Source of the DNA: Nitratiruptor sp. SB155-2
GTDB lineage: Bacteria > Campylobacterota > Campylobacteria > Campylobacterales > Nitratiruptoraceae
Length of the DNA: 64,000 bases
Assembly: GCF_000010325.1 (NCBI RefSeq)
Contig: NC_009662.1
Coordinates: 1,198,501-1,262,500 of the forward strand
Reading direction: 5' to 3'
Positions 27,654-32,752 of this stretch are shown piece after piece. The notes under the pieces are model-generated. The model was not told where the DNA came from and searched no databases. It saw only the letters and a list, made by a program, of their open reading frames with translations. A program made the translations under genes and the position numbers. Positions within the stretch are counted from its first letter, which is position 1. The number at the start of each line of letters is the position of its first letter.

Positions 27654-29006
27654 TTATTCATTCTTTTGTAATTGTTTTACTATCCAGTTGGTATTGATAA
27701 TATTGAAAACCTCATCATGATAGTCAACAGTTCCTTTGATAAAATGATCTTTTTGAGATAAAACGATATAAACATCATCTTTTGGTACTTGAATAATCTC
27801 GTCAATATTGCCTATAAGCAATGCAAAGTCAAACAGTTTTCCATCCAAATCTGTTTGTATTATAAGAATCAATCGTTCCCCTTTTTGAATTTCCCCTTTT
27901 TCACTTGCCAAATATTCTAAGTCAAAAAGAAGATAACTTCTTGAATCTATAGCAACAATTCCTTCAATGCCCTCTTTATGTTCTAAAGATCTTGTAATGT
28001 GAACATCCTGCTCTTCATGGATACCCTTTATATATTCCATTTTTATAGCAAAACGATCTCCATCCACTCTAACAATTAAAAACTCTTCATATTCAGTTGT
28101 TCCCCTTGAAACTTCATCCTTATTATTTGATGTAATGCCATATTCTTCAATAAGTTTTTCCAAGTATTTATTGTCAATAATAGAAATAATTTGGTTGTGA
28201 TAGATAAAGAAACGATTTAGAATCTCCTCACCCCTTGCAATATTGATATGTTCTGTTTGTATATTAACAATATTAAGAATTTTTCCAACTGATAATCCCA
28301 GGTGAAGATTCTCTTTTTTTAAGATAAAAATATTTTCACCTAGTTGTTTATCAACATGTAACAGTTTTCCTAAATTGACAATGTGCAATAATCTATTTTT
28401 AACTAAATAAACTCCTTCAATAAACTCCTCTTTTGGAATATAAACCCCTTTTTTTGCATCCTCAAAGACTTCAACAAATTGTACGATAGAAGCATCAATG
28501 GCAAATATCTCTTTCCCAAGTTTAAATAGAATCAAACTTATCTCATCTTGTGTTGTTTCAACTACACTTTGTAAAAGTTTGTCTTTTTGTTTTTGAAATG
28601 TTGGTTTAATAGTTGGAACATCTACATTACTATAAAAAAAATCCTCTTTTAAAATTTCCACGACTTCTTCATCTAGATTGATTACCTCGATTTTGTCATT
28701 ATTATATTTAATATGCTCAATCTCTTCTATCTTATGTATTTCATCTATAAGAATCGCAAAGTCTTTATCTTTAATGCTCAAGATAATAGCACTTTTATTC
28801 TTTATATCGCCACATTCCCCAAGTTTCAAAATTTTTTTGAGACAAACTAAAAAATAGATATCACCATTTTGTTTAATTTCTCCTACTATATACTCGGGCA
28901 TAAATTCTACATCATACACTTTTTCTACATCAACTATCCATTTTACATTGTCTACATTGACACCAAATATAGAATCGTTAACTTTAAATGTACATACCGA
29001 AACCAT
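27654..29006 (-). CDS. Protein of three tandem CheW-like domains
   Basis: The 450-residue protein has no membrane segment. It reads as three CheW-like folds: about 1-125 (VCTFKVNDSIFGVNVDNVKW, YFLVCLKKILKL), 155-290 (ILFKLGKEIFAIDASIVQFV, LLHIVNLGKLL) and 306-448 (FLIVRVDGDRFAIKMEYIKG, YLLFDLEYLA). CheW couples chemoreceptors to the kinase CheA. The usual consensus in the third strand is weak in all three copies, so partner specificity probably differs. Its ATG overlaps the stop of the double-MCP gene as TAATG, so the two products are likely made together. Lys/Ile/Glu-rich AT-biased codons set it apart from neighbouring genes. No CheA, CheR or CheB is in the window. Confidence 0.85.
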   Translation of the reverse strand: MVSVCTFKVNDSIFGVNVDNVKWIVDVEKVYDVEFMPEYIVGEIKQNGDIYFLVCLKKILKLGECGDIKNKSAIILSIKDKDFAILIDEIHKIEEIEHIKYNNDKIEVINLDEEVVEILKEDFFYSNVDVPTIKPTFQKQKDKLLQSVVETTQDEISLILFKLGKEIFAIDASIVQFVEVFEDAKKGVYIPKEEFIEGVYLVKNRLLHIVNLGKLLHVDKQLGENIFILKKENLHLGLSVGKILNIVNIQTEHINIARGEEILNRFFIYHNQIISIIDNKYLEKLIEEYGITSNNKDEVSRGTTEYEEFLIVRVDGDRFAIKMEYIKGIHEEQDVHITRSLEHKEGIEGIVAIDSRSYLLFDLEYLASEKGEIQKGERLILIIQTDLDGKLFDFALLIGNIDEIIQVPKDDVYIVLSQKDHFIKGTVDYHDEVFNIINTNWIVKQLQKNE

Positions 29007-30886
29007 TACTCTTCTCCAGACAATACTGATGCAATCTCAAAAAGTTTTGCAGAGAGCTCTTTCATATCCCGACTAATCTTTAAGATAATATTTGCCGCTT
29101 CTCTCGACTCTGAAGCATTTTTGTGAGAAATATTTGCCGCTTCTAAAATCTGTTCTGCAGCAATTTTACTCTGTTCGAGAGCTTGAAAAATATGTTCAAC
29201 TCGTGTCACACCTTTTTCCACAGCTTCTAAAACTTTGATGAGGTTCTCTTTATTATTAGCAAGCTCATACTCTATACGATCTAGTTTCTCATTTTCTGCT
29301 CGCTGAGTCAAAATGATATTATTGACTAACACATTGATTTGATCATTCTCCTCTTTTACTTTATTAATTGTCTTGATAACTTTATCTAGATTCTCTTCTG
29401 AACTATTCGCAAGCTCTTTTATATCGCGGCTAACTTCACTAAAACCATTGCCAAATTCACCTGCTCGTATCGCCTCTACCGAACCATTGATAGAAAGGGC
29501 AGAAATTTGAACAATGGAGAGCTCAATTTTACGAATCATATCGTTAAGTGCATTGATTTTTGAATTAATAAAATCGAGAGCTGGTATTACATCTTCAGAT
29601 GATTTGGTATTCTCTAATGCCATAGATTTTATTTTTTTAAGATCTTGTATAACACCTTCAAATATTTGATCGATTTTTTTGATGTTTTCAAAAAGTTCAT
29701 GTAACAAATCTTTTGCACGGGCTGCTTCTTGCAACGTTTGATGTGCCACTTGTTCCGCTTTTTTAGCATCTTCTTTAGCAATATTGGCTGCCTCTTCTAT
29801 CTGTTCTAAAGCTTCAACAGTCTGTTCCATCGAACGTTCAATCTCCTCATTGGTACTTGTGAGCTCTTCTGAAGCAGAAGCCAACTCATCCACAACAGCT
29901 TTTTTATCGTTTCCTTCCAACTTATCGACAAGATTCTTGATCATTTTCGCTGCAACTTCTGCTTGTGCAAAGGCTTCAACCTGCTGTGAGATTGTATTAG
30001 TGATCTCACTGACTGCACTAGCACTCTCTTCAGCAGCACTAGCAATAATTTCCGCACTTCTATGTAGAGCATTTACCTCTTTTGCCGTTCGTTTCACTGC
30101 ATCCACAACAGTTAATGTCAGTTTGTTTGATTCTTGAATTAGATTCATGATATAGTGCATATTATTTGAGCTGTCAAGAGCAATTTTTTCCGCTTCCTGC
30201 ATCGAAGTATGGAGTTTATTCATCACATCTTTTGCTACGCCAATCTTTTCTTGCGTTATTTGAACAATATCTTTAATGTTAACAACGTATCTATTGGATT
30301 TTGATGCAATCTGACGGATTTCAGAAGCCATAATGGTGAAGCTTTTTCCTTTTTCTTTTGCCCTTGCAGCTTCTATCGCTGCATTAAGAGCTAACAAAGA
30401 GGTTTTTTTCGCAAGTTTTGTAATCAAGTTAACTGCATTATCTATCTCTTTAGATGAATCATATAATATATTTGCTTTATTGGCTATCTCTTCAGCTAAA
30501 CCTGCCGTAACACGCATTTTTTCTTTATCTTCCAATATACTTTGATTTGCACCCTTTATGAGTTCCATAAATTTTTCAGAAATATCTAAAATAAGATTGC
30601 TATCATTTTCTAATATTTGTGCGTTTTTATTAATCTCATCTATTGCACTTAGACTCTCCTCAGCCGCCCCTGCATTCTCTTCTGCTGCTGCGGCAATTTG
30701 TTCCATCGTCCCTTTTATCTCTTCGATAGCTGCTAAACCATCTGCAGTTCTCTCATTTAGTTTTTGTGCTATCTCTTCAATACTTGCAGTATTCAGATCC
30801 AAATCTAAACCATGCTTATCACTTTTTTGAGTATTTTTCTCTTCAACAGACATCTGTTTGTCTAAGTGTTTTTTGATAAAACCCAT
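29006..30886 (-). CDS. Soluble protein with two tandem MCP signalling hairpins
   Basis: The 626-residue protein lacks signal peptide, membrane helices and any recognisable sensor or HAMP domain. It is almost wholly coiled coil. Two receptor tips are visible. Tip 1, about residues 160-198, reads TSLLALNAAIEAARAKEKGK then FTIMASEIRQIASKSN. Tip 2, about 459-497, is degenerate but clear: ISALSINGSVEAIRAGEFGN then GFSEVSRDIKELANSS. Matching coiled-coil arms flank each tip (61-85 with 279-302; 334-370 with 564-605). Tips of this kind bind CheW and CheA. The gene has a strong AAAGGAG and lies 18 bp after the PAS-GGDEF-EAL gene, coupled to the triple-CheW gene. How it senses anything is unknown. A scaffold or cytoplasmic signalling role is inferred. 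Confidence 0.88.
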   Translation of the reverse strand: MGFIKKHLDKQMSVEEKNTQKSDKHGLDLDLNTASIEEIAQKLNERTADGLAAIEEIKGTMEQIAAAAEENAGAAEESLSAIDEINKNAQILENDSNLILDISEKFMELIKGANQSILEDKEKMRVTAGLAEEIANKANILYDSSKEIDNAVNLITKLAKKTSLLALNAAIEAARAKEKGKSFTIMASEIRQIASKSNRYVVNIKDIVQITQEKIGVAKDVMNKLHTSMQEAEKIALDSSNNMHYIMNLIQESNKLTLTVVDAVKRTAKEVNALHRSAEIIASAAEESASAVSEITNTISQQVEAFAQAEVAAKMIKNLVDKLEGNDKKAVVDELASASEELTSTNEEIERSMEQTVEALEQIEEAANIAKEDAKKAEQVAHQTLQEAARAKDLLHELFENIKKIDQIFEGVIQDLKKIKSMALENTKSSEDVIPALDFINSKINALNDMIRKIELSIVQISALSINGSVEAIRAGEFGNGFSEVSRDIKELANSSEENLDKVIKTINKVKEENDQINVLVNNIILTQRAENEKLDRIEYELANNKENLIKVLEAVEKGVTRVEHIFQALEQSKIAAEQILEAANISHKNASESREAANIILKISRDMKELSAKLFEIASVLSGEE

Positions 30887-30904
30887 TTACGCTCCTTTAA
30901 TAAA

Positions 30905-32592
30905 TTAATGTATTTCAGGCCGTCCAAAATAGAATCCTTGAAAAATGTCTACTCCAATTTCTTCAAGAATTTGCAACTGCTCTCTTGTCTCAACGCCTTC
31001 TGCAACAACTTTTAAATCAAAAATGTGACCAATTTTTGTTATTGCTTCAACTATTGCATAATCATTAGAATTATCGACAACATTTTTTACAAATATTTTA
31101 TCGATCTTAAGTTCAGCCAATGGTAATGTTTTCAAATACTCAAAGGAAGAAAAACCTGTACCAAAATCATCGATACTAAACGAAATACCGATATTTTTCA
31201 ATTGTTTTATTTTGCTAATAGCTTCATCTATATTTTCCAGCAATATATTTTCTGTTATTTCAAAGATGAGATTATTAGGATTTATGTTATATTTATTTAT
31301 TATGTTTATAACTCTTTTAACAAATAAATCATCTTCAAACTGTTTAGGACTAATATTGACAGAAATTTTTTCATTATATTTTTGAAGATACGAACAGACT
31401 TTCTGTAATATATATGAACCAATTTCTATGATCAAACCATTCTCTTCGGCTATAGGAATGAATTTATCTGGAGGAATAATCTGTCCATTTAGTTCCCATC
31501 GAACAAGAGCCTCATATCCTACAACAACAGGAGTTTGATTTTCTAATCGCACCTTTTTTTGAAAAGCTAAAAAGAACTGATCGTTTTTAAGCCCCTCTTT
31601 GATTTTTTCTTTTATTTTGCTTTTTTCTTTCAATGTTTTAAAATATTTGGAATTAAAAAAAATAATACGACTTTTTCGATTCTCTTTGGCATTATATAAT
31701 GCAATATCTGCTTGTCGCAACAATAATGCAATATCCAAATTTGGTTCAATCAGTGCAATGCCAATACTAATTGTGATATTAATTTCTTGATCATCAATCA
31801 CATACAGTTTTTCCAACTCTTTTTTTAATCGCCCAGCGAAACTAGAACTAAAAATGCGGACTTTTTCTCTATCTTTTTCTTTTAAATCACAAAAAAGAAG
31901 AAATTCATCACCTCCGACTCTTGCTATCAAAGACTCTTTTCGAACAGTAGTTTTTAGTCTCTTGGCAATCTCTTTTAAAAGAAGATCTCCCACTTCATAT
32001 CCACGAATCTCATTGATCTCTCTAAAATTATCAATATCAATAAAAAAAAGTGCACCATATAAAGAATGGGTTGAATAATAAGGAAAGACTTCTTGAATAA
32101 ATTCCAAAAAATACTTTCTATTATAAAGACCTGTTAAAAAATCATAATTGGATAGAAAATCGATCATTTTATCTTTTTCAACAATTTCAGAAATATCGAA
32201 AATGGCAACCATGCGTAAAGGTGTATCCCAAAGCTGAATACTTGTACCTTTAACCAAAATCCAAGCACTTGTACCATCTCTTTTTTTAACCTTTACTTTG
32301 TAGGGTTTTTTATATTTTTTTTTATATTATTTTGAACAGTTTTTTTACAATTTGCAGCAACAAAATCATAGATACTTTTACCAACAAGCTCTTTTTTACT
32401 ATATCCCACTATATTAGCGGCACTGCTATTGGCATATAAAATCATTCCACCGATTTCTATGAAAATAATTCCTTCGAATATATTTTCGAAGAAATTGGCG
32501 ATATACTCTTGAAGTTGCTGATCGATAGTTTGCAACGTATTCAAATCCTTAAATAAAATATTTTCATTCATAAACATAAATGAAAAAATCAT
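30905..32592 (-). pseudogene. PAS-GGDEF-EAL cyclic-di-GMP enzyme, frameshifted in the PAS domain
   Basis: The first frame (32592 to stop 32293) carries an N-terminal helix and half a PAS domain (NIFEGIIFIEIGGMILYANS, IVGYSKKELVGKSIYDF). One extra A in the six-A run at 32306-32311 continues into KPYKVKVKKRDGTSAWILVK and the rest of the PAS, giving 562 residues. GGDEF follows (LYNRKYFLEF, IARVGGDEFLLF), without the RxxD inhibitory site. The EAL domain is complete (GYEALVRW, NISPKQFED, FEITENIL, DDFGTGFSSFEYLK, VVAEGVET, QGFYFGRP). Both catalytic motifs look active, so the restored protein could make and degrade cyclic-di-GMP. It is first in the AT-rich signalling operon. Confidence 0.82.
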
Positions 32593-32704
32593 AACTAAAC
32601 TACCTTAAAATCTCTTTACTAAATTTAAATATTGGGATTGTATCAAAGACATTTATCAAAAACCGTTCATTTTTTAAACAAAATCTAAAGAAGTAATGAA
32701 GAGA

Positions 32705-32721
32705 GTCCTCTAAGAGAGGAC
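32705..32721 (-). terminator. Candidate terminator downstream of the acidic unknown gene
   Basis: Six-bp stem GTCCTC / GAGGAC with a five-base loop, 32 bases past the stop at 32753 and followed on the minus strand by a T-rich stretch. It lies in the 160-bp gap before the signalling operon, which otherwise holds only AT-rich sequence. Confidence 0.45.
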
Positions 32722-32752
32722 ATGAAGAATTTTATATATAAAGTATATAGCA

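Follow-up and report, generated by a model that had tools for sequence, protein, structure and literature searches.

A cluster of three genes between recO and the gene for a 227-aa protein in Nitratiruptor sp. SB155-2 raises two questions: how a chemoreceptor-like protein and its adaptor came to stand behind a gene for cyclic-di-GMP (c-di-GMP) turnover, and what such a set could do with no histidine kinase gene beside it. The window analysed here is a stretch of 64,000 nt (contig NC_009662.1, nt 1,198,501 – 1,262,500), and positions are those of the window unless another locus is named. The cluster is likely to represent a second, inserted partial F9 module, i.e. a cytoplasmic two-layer scaffold that would borrow the CheA of the F14 system, with the c-di-GMP enzyme as its probable input or output. 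The relevant features are as follows.

30905..32592, minus strand: PAS-GGDEF-EAL gene (c-di-GMP synthesis/degradation), frameshifted; from frame reading, Pfam and orthologues
29006..30886, minus strand: dosM-type receptor gene, 626 aa; from Pfam (two MCPsignal stretches), alignments and model
27654..29006, minus strand: cheW3, 450 aa, three concatenated CheW domains; from Pfam and relation to solved CheW structures
32315..32323, minus strand: A9 run (T9 on the plus strand); from the count of A/T runs in the window
32593..32752, minus strand: stretch that separates the cassette from the 227-aa flanking gene, with the short hairpin GTCCTCTCTTAGAGGAC and presumably the promoter inside

The receptor and adaptor pair

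Transcription on the minus strand runs from the PAS-GGDEF-EAL gene through dosM to cheW3. The enzyme gene and dosM are separated by 18 bp, and dosM and cheW3 overlap by one base at TAATG, exactly as in the original prediction. Its domain calls (PAS, GGDEF and EAL; two MCPsignal stretches; three CheW domains) were upheld by Pfam and the three genes are real, except that the enzyme gene is split by a frameshift and is not the single open frame that had been assumed (see below). A promoter scan was uninformative (36 sites vs 27 expected) and was dropped as evidence.

In the account of Mo et al. (2022; PMC9321776), the F9 class is marked by a pair of proteins, a soluble receptor (DosM) that has two signalling domains and a concatenated triple CheW. 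The window receptor carries two MCPsignal stretches in tandem in one chain, and the gene abutting it encodes three CheW stretches, so that on domain content the pair is assigned to this described class. The pair had been proposed as possibly undescribed; as the F9 pair is already reported from Nitratiruptor in the text cited, it is rare rather than undescribed. CheW3 matches solved CheW proteins, and its structural model, being of low confidence (mean pLDDT 68), was used only for recognising the CheW fold.

The glutamates at the two receptor tips are residues 178 and 477, a spacing of 299 residues or 42.7 heptads. Neither a transmembrane segment nor a HAMP or sensor domain was found in the receptor, for which Pfam gave MCPsignal alone and the model is helical. 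This agrees with the prediction of a cytoplasmic signalling scaffold, as does the fact that DosM and CheW3 build cytoplasmic arrays in Vibrio cholerae (PMC7534058). The AlphaFold model of DosM is nearly all helix from residue 21 to 622 (mean pLDDT 89, pTM 0.64) and is that of a monomer, so the tip directions are not fixed by it. The first hairpin matches the Thermotoga maritima soluble receptor domain 2ch7 by sequence (residues 34–308), and the model matches the same structure in fold over 300 columns (TM-score 0.84 by target); other long helical proteins returned by the fold search were set aside as coiled-coil matches. The two hairpins probably lie end to end.

Both tips align with receptors from other phyla whose genes directly precede one for a multi-CheW protein, namely those of an acidobacterium, a Paenibacillus bin, two bradyrhizobia and a Denitrovibrio bin. 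The scan behind this comparison covered one genome collection with a pattern (ALNAAIEA) that was too general and returned mostly ordinary receptors, among which were five loci (L082–L085, L110) with a multi-CheW gene directly behind a long receptor gene. The second tip of the window receptor reads ING, where the other-phyla receptors have VNG or VSG; ordinary first tips have LNA. The conserved Glu/Arg core is retained in both tips, and methylation-like helices remain in the alignments.

Two further observations concern related receptors. The paralogous DosM of the same genome (L043:11050-12942) and the DosM of the relative G003 have four residues fewer in the first tip than the window copy. 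Beside the F14 genes, a 476-aa protein (L058:6148-7578) with a PAS-like N-terminal part has the tip-like motifs LSLNASIES and IHINGMIES, and judged by these motifs may be a further, PAS-bearing double-tip receptor.

Probable insertion at an otherwise empty site

In all 12 other relatives examined (G002–G006, G009, G014 and G016–G020), recO and the 227-aa flanking gene adjoin each other in convergent orientation, at a distance of 2 to 30 bases as measured between the ends of protein matches; junction sequences are available for eight. Only in the window genome (G000) and in G001 does the 5-kb cassette stand between them. Since the site is empty in the other 12, the cassette was probably inserted in the common ancestor of these two species. 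A plasmid origin was rejected, as tblastn found no CheW3 homologue in 72,556 plasmid records.

The empty site is better evidence of transfer than base composition, from which the original prediction had proposed a transferred or fast-evolving unit. The four G/C counts given there (14 and 10 of 60 within the cluster, 33 and 27 of 60 outside it) are exact. Against 1-kb windows of the genome (mean GC 0.393, sd 0.036; N-masked sample, n=933), the contrast stands for the two outer genes, both with a GC of 0.29 (only 0.6% of 1-kb windows are as low), and is weak for the receptor gene (0.36; 15% are as low); the 5-kb block as a whole falls in the lowest 1.1%. The transfer that had been proposed is thus borne out as the insertion of an AT-rich block between genes that adjoin in 12 relatives. 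An argument from composition alone was rejected, because an equal AT-richness is found in the F14 chemotaxis genes and in several further blocks. Chemotaxis genes of F14 (cheV, cheY and receptor genes) show the same AT shift and a similar divergence, so that composition by itself is no proof of a separate, later transfer. Across L058:6148-10861 the F14 receptors, cheY, cheV and cheW are AT-rich with a GC3 of 0.21–0.25, and those compared have strongly diverged synonymously from G001; a paper of 2007 had already remarked on an atypical G+C content of the flagellar cluster (PMC2147049).

Between the window genome and G001, dS of the cassette genes is 1.3–1.9, compared with a median of 0.63 (95th percentile 1.47) for 157 gene pairs, a median that is somewhat low because shadow frames with artificially low dS are among the pairs; most real genes of the window have values of 0.4–1.1. 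The cassette has a GC3 of 0.20–0.27 vs 0.34–0.38 in G001. All three genes have a dN/dS of only 0.06–0.09 against G001, so the label of fast evolution suits their synonymous sites and not their proteins. Identity between the two genomes jumps from 0.74 to 0.89 at the recO end; sharp recombination edges were rejected, the other side having no clear edge.

The broken enzyme gene and its probable link to the pair

The PAS frame (32293–32592) ends with a stop at 32293, while GGDEF and EAL are read in a different frame, from 30905 to about 32311. In comparison with G001 and G020, which have intact orthologues of 557 and 550 aa, the window genome lacks one base within the stretch ATAAAAAAAAATATAAAAAACCC. 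The break adjoins the A9 run (32315–32323) between PAS and GGDEF, and the gene as it stands therefore has no continuous frame for a bifunctional c-di-GMP enzyme. The part downstream of the break has 450 codons without a stop, the signature motifs of GGDEF and EAL (RVGGDEF, YEALVRW, DDFGTG and EGVE are present in the translation), Pfam scores of 126 bits (GGDEF) and 228 bits (EAL), and a dN/dS of 0.086 vs G001. From the open codons, the motifs and the low dN/dS it follows that the break is recent, is bypassed or is a sequencing error. Transcriptional slippage at homopolymer runs is known from other bacteria. In the window genome the enzyme has probably been newly lost, or is made solely by slippage at the A9 run.

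Two readings of the whole locus start from this break. One, which we regard as somewhat unlikely, is that a transferred module is decaying in this genome, with the enzyme already a pseudogene and the composition drifting towards A+T. The one-base deficit would fit, as would the depressed GC3 and raised dS of the cassette; the long stop-free frame and the low dN/dS of all three genes do not, the receptor and adaptor are intact, and the F14 cheV, cheY and receptor genes, presumably in use, show the same AT shift. The other reading makes the A9 run an on-off or leak switch, at which slippage or phase variation would yield both a PAS-only product and the full-length enzyme. The run is the sole A/T run of at least nine in the 64-kb window (eight such runs occur in a separate 395 kb sampled from the genome), it lies right beside the frame break, and the frame downstream is under purifying selection. 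The matching run, however, has only 6 A in G001 and 8 A in G020, where the gene is in frame, so a switch would not be conserved. Homopolymers are, moreover, common sites of mutation and prone to sequencing error; a switch is distinctly improbable.

Whether the enzyme gene belongs with the receptor and adaptor at all is a separate matter. With 35 GGDEF matches in the window genome, adjacency in a single genome may be due to chance and is weak evidence. Orthologues of the G001 enzyme (at least 52% identity; the next best match has 39%) occur in only three of 60 genomes, G000, G001 and G020, in each directly upstream of dosM-cheW3, and no orthologue was found away from the pair in any of the 60. 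The three genes have the same order and short gaps in all three genomes, with protein identities of 52–75%, and the flanks of the G020 cassette differ from those in G000 and G001. This order, common to two genera, is stronger evidence than adjacency in one genome and is the sole argument against chance. In the trees the window copy groups with G001, followed by G002 and G020; in the receptor tree G002 branches between G020 and the G000/G001 pair (support 0.98). The G002 pair has cheB-X-cheR, X being a gene described below, and the neighbourhood read holds no GGDEF-EAL gene. Since it branches inside the cassette group, the link to the enzyme has been lost or gained more than once.

An unrelated passenger, upstream of the pair by chance at the time of its move, would fit the many GGDEF matches of the genome and the G002 pair without the enzyme gene; the order kept in different surroundings and the constant company of orthologue and pair speak against it, and we consider it unlikely. 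A c-di-GMP coupling of the enzyme to the receptor scaffold is most likely, as suggested by gene order. The joining of c-di-GMP to chemosensory arrays that had been predicted thus gains from the shared order in G001 and G020 and loses from the frameshift, on account of which the link may not operate in this strain. In a separate case, the full F9 cluster of G208 has a GGDEF-EAL-like gene (L164:3762-6230) that shares the strand of dosM and precedes it by 577 bp; the low score of this gene speaks against orthology with the enzyme in the window.

Sister copies, the single CheA and known systems

A paralogous pair is present in the same genome at 267–271 kb, its receptor 41% and its adaptor 27% identical to the window copies, and adjoins cheB, a 180-aa gene (X) and cheR. 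CheW3 matches were found in 11 of 397 Campylobacterota genomes (E <= 1e-20), to which the search of relatives added G002 and G020. Three arrangements were seen. The pair accompanied by X (and by cheB and cheR where the contig reaches) is present in G000, G001, G002, G003, G019, G075 and G328; the pair with cheA nearby in G208, G295, G370, G384 and G388; and GGDEF-EAL-dosM-cheW3 without cheBR in the window genome, G001 and G020.

In the partial F9 sets read, cheB and cheR are accompanied by this gene of about 180 aa, which has no Pfam match. It may encode an unrecognised F9 accessory protein.

L043:8390-8932, L047:4216-4776, L050:9694-10236, L162:10206-10730: ~180-aa gene X

In three genomes partial F9 clusters adjoin tRNA genes (L043:7171-7244, L047:3305-3381, L170:2986-3063), with tRNA-Arg before cheB, tRNA-Asp touching cheR and tRNA-Pro at the start of dosM, which fits elements inserting at tRNA genes.

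All eight genomes with partial sets have one CheA each, the five whose sets are full have two to four, and in the neighbourhoods read no CheA lies next to the window copy or to any other partial set. The single CheA of the window genome is encoded near 604 kb among the flagellar genes (F14). CheA, CheB, CheR and CheY are indeed missing near the window copy, as had been observed, and all four are present elsewhere in the genome. In V. cholerae, DosM and CheW3 form a purely cytoplasmic array, a pair of opposed receptor layers enclosed by two base plates; DosM seems to be required for its assembly and CheA is not, and no phenotype was detected under standard conditions when the F9 CheA was deleted (PMC7534058). 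By analogy, the Nitratiruptor DosM would form a cytoplasmic lattice of receptors between two base plates, with CheW3 as base-plate protein. With one CheA in the genome, this lattice would need the F14 kinase for any signalling, and such borrowing from another class is what Mo et al. propose for partial F9 sets (PMC9321776, main text). The PAS-GGDEF-EAL enzyme would then most likely link the lattice to the c-di-GMP pool, as input or as output.

A kinase-free lattice might instead do no signalling itself and tune the F14 array as a store or decoy, a scaffold on which CheA, cytoplasmic receptors or the c-di-GMP enzyme are kept within a cytoplasmic body. The absence of CheA beside any partial set, the single CheA per genome, arrays forming without their CheA in V. 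cholerae (PMC7534058), the lack of cheB and cheR beside the window copy and, in the main text of PMC9321776, the absence of sensor domains from most DosM would all suit such a role. The Glu/Arg core conserved in both tips, the methylation-like helices, and cheB and cheR beside the sister copies argue against it, leaving it doubtful, about on a par with decay. More doubtful still is that the cassette is a distinct, mobile form of F9 devoid of CheA and methylation genes, in which the enzyme would be docked on a lattice serving c-di-GMP signalling and not taxis. We thus retain the reading of an inserted partial F9 module that borrows the F14 CheA. The role of cytoplasmic F9 arrays is poorly understood, and a cassette of one enzyme, one receptor and one adaptor in genomes with one CheA provides a small test case, which could show whether such lattices borrow the kinase of another system and whether c-di-GMP is input or output.

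Among known systems, cluster I of V. cholerae (DosM VC1403, triple CheW VC1402, CheA VC1397; PMC7534058) shares the soluble receptor with two signalling domains and the triple CheW, a likeness drawn between a published description of its DosM and a module known from its genes. In contrast to that cluster, the window copy has no CheA, CheY, CheB or CheR, and a PAS-GGDEF-EAL gene stands upstream instead; with neither cheA nor cheY in the cluster, it is not a full F9 set. The 2ch7 domain of T. maritima resembles the first hairpin in fold and sequence, but has one hairpin where the window DosM has two. Closest are the partial F9 sets which, in the main text of Mo et al. (PMC9321776), consist of dosM, cheW3 and cheBR without cheA and occur in 8 of 2,781 species, among them two Nitratiruptor and one Nautilia species. 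Like these, the window copy has dosM and cheW3 but no cheA of its own, and the single CheA of its genome belongs to a different class. The 267-kb paralogue also has the cheB and cheR of the published sets, whereas the window copy lacks them and lies behind a GGDEF-EAL gene. The passages of its main text consulted here make no mention of the order GGDEF-EAL-dosM-cheW3 without cheBR in that paper. As far as checked, the second copy, this order and the insertion at an otherwise empty site appear to be new.
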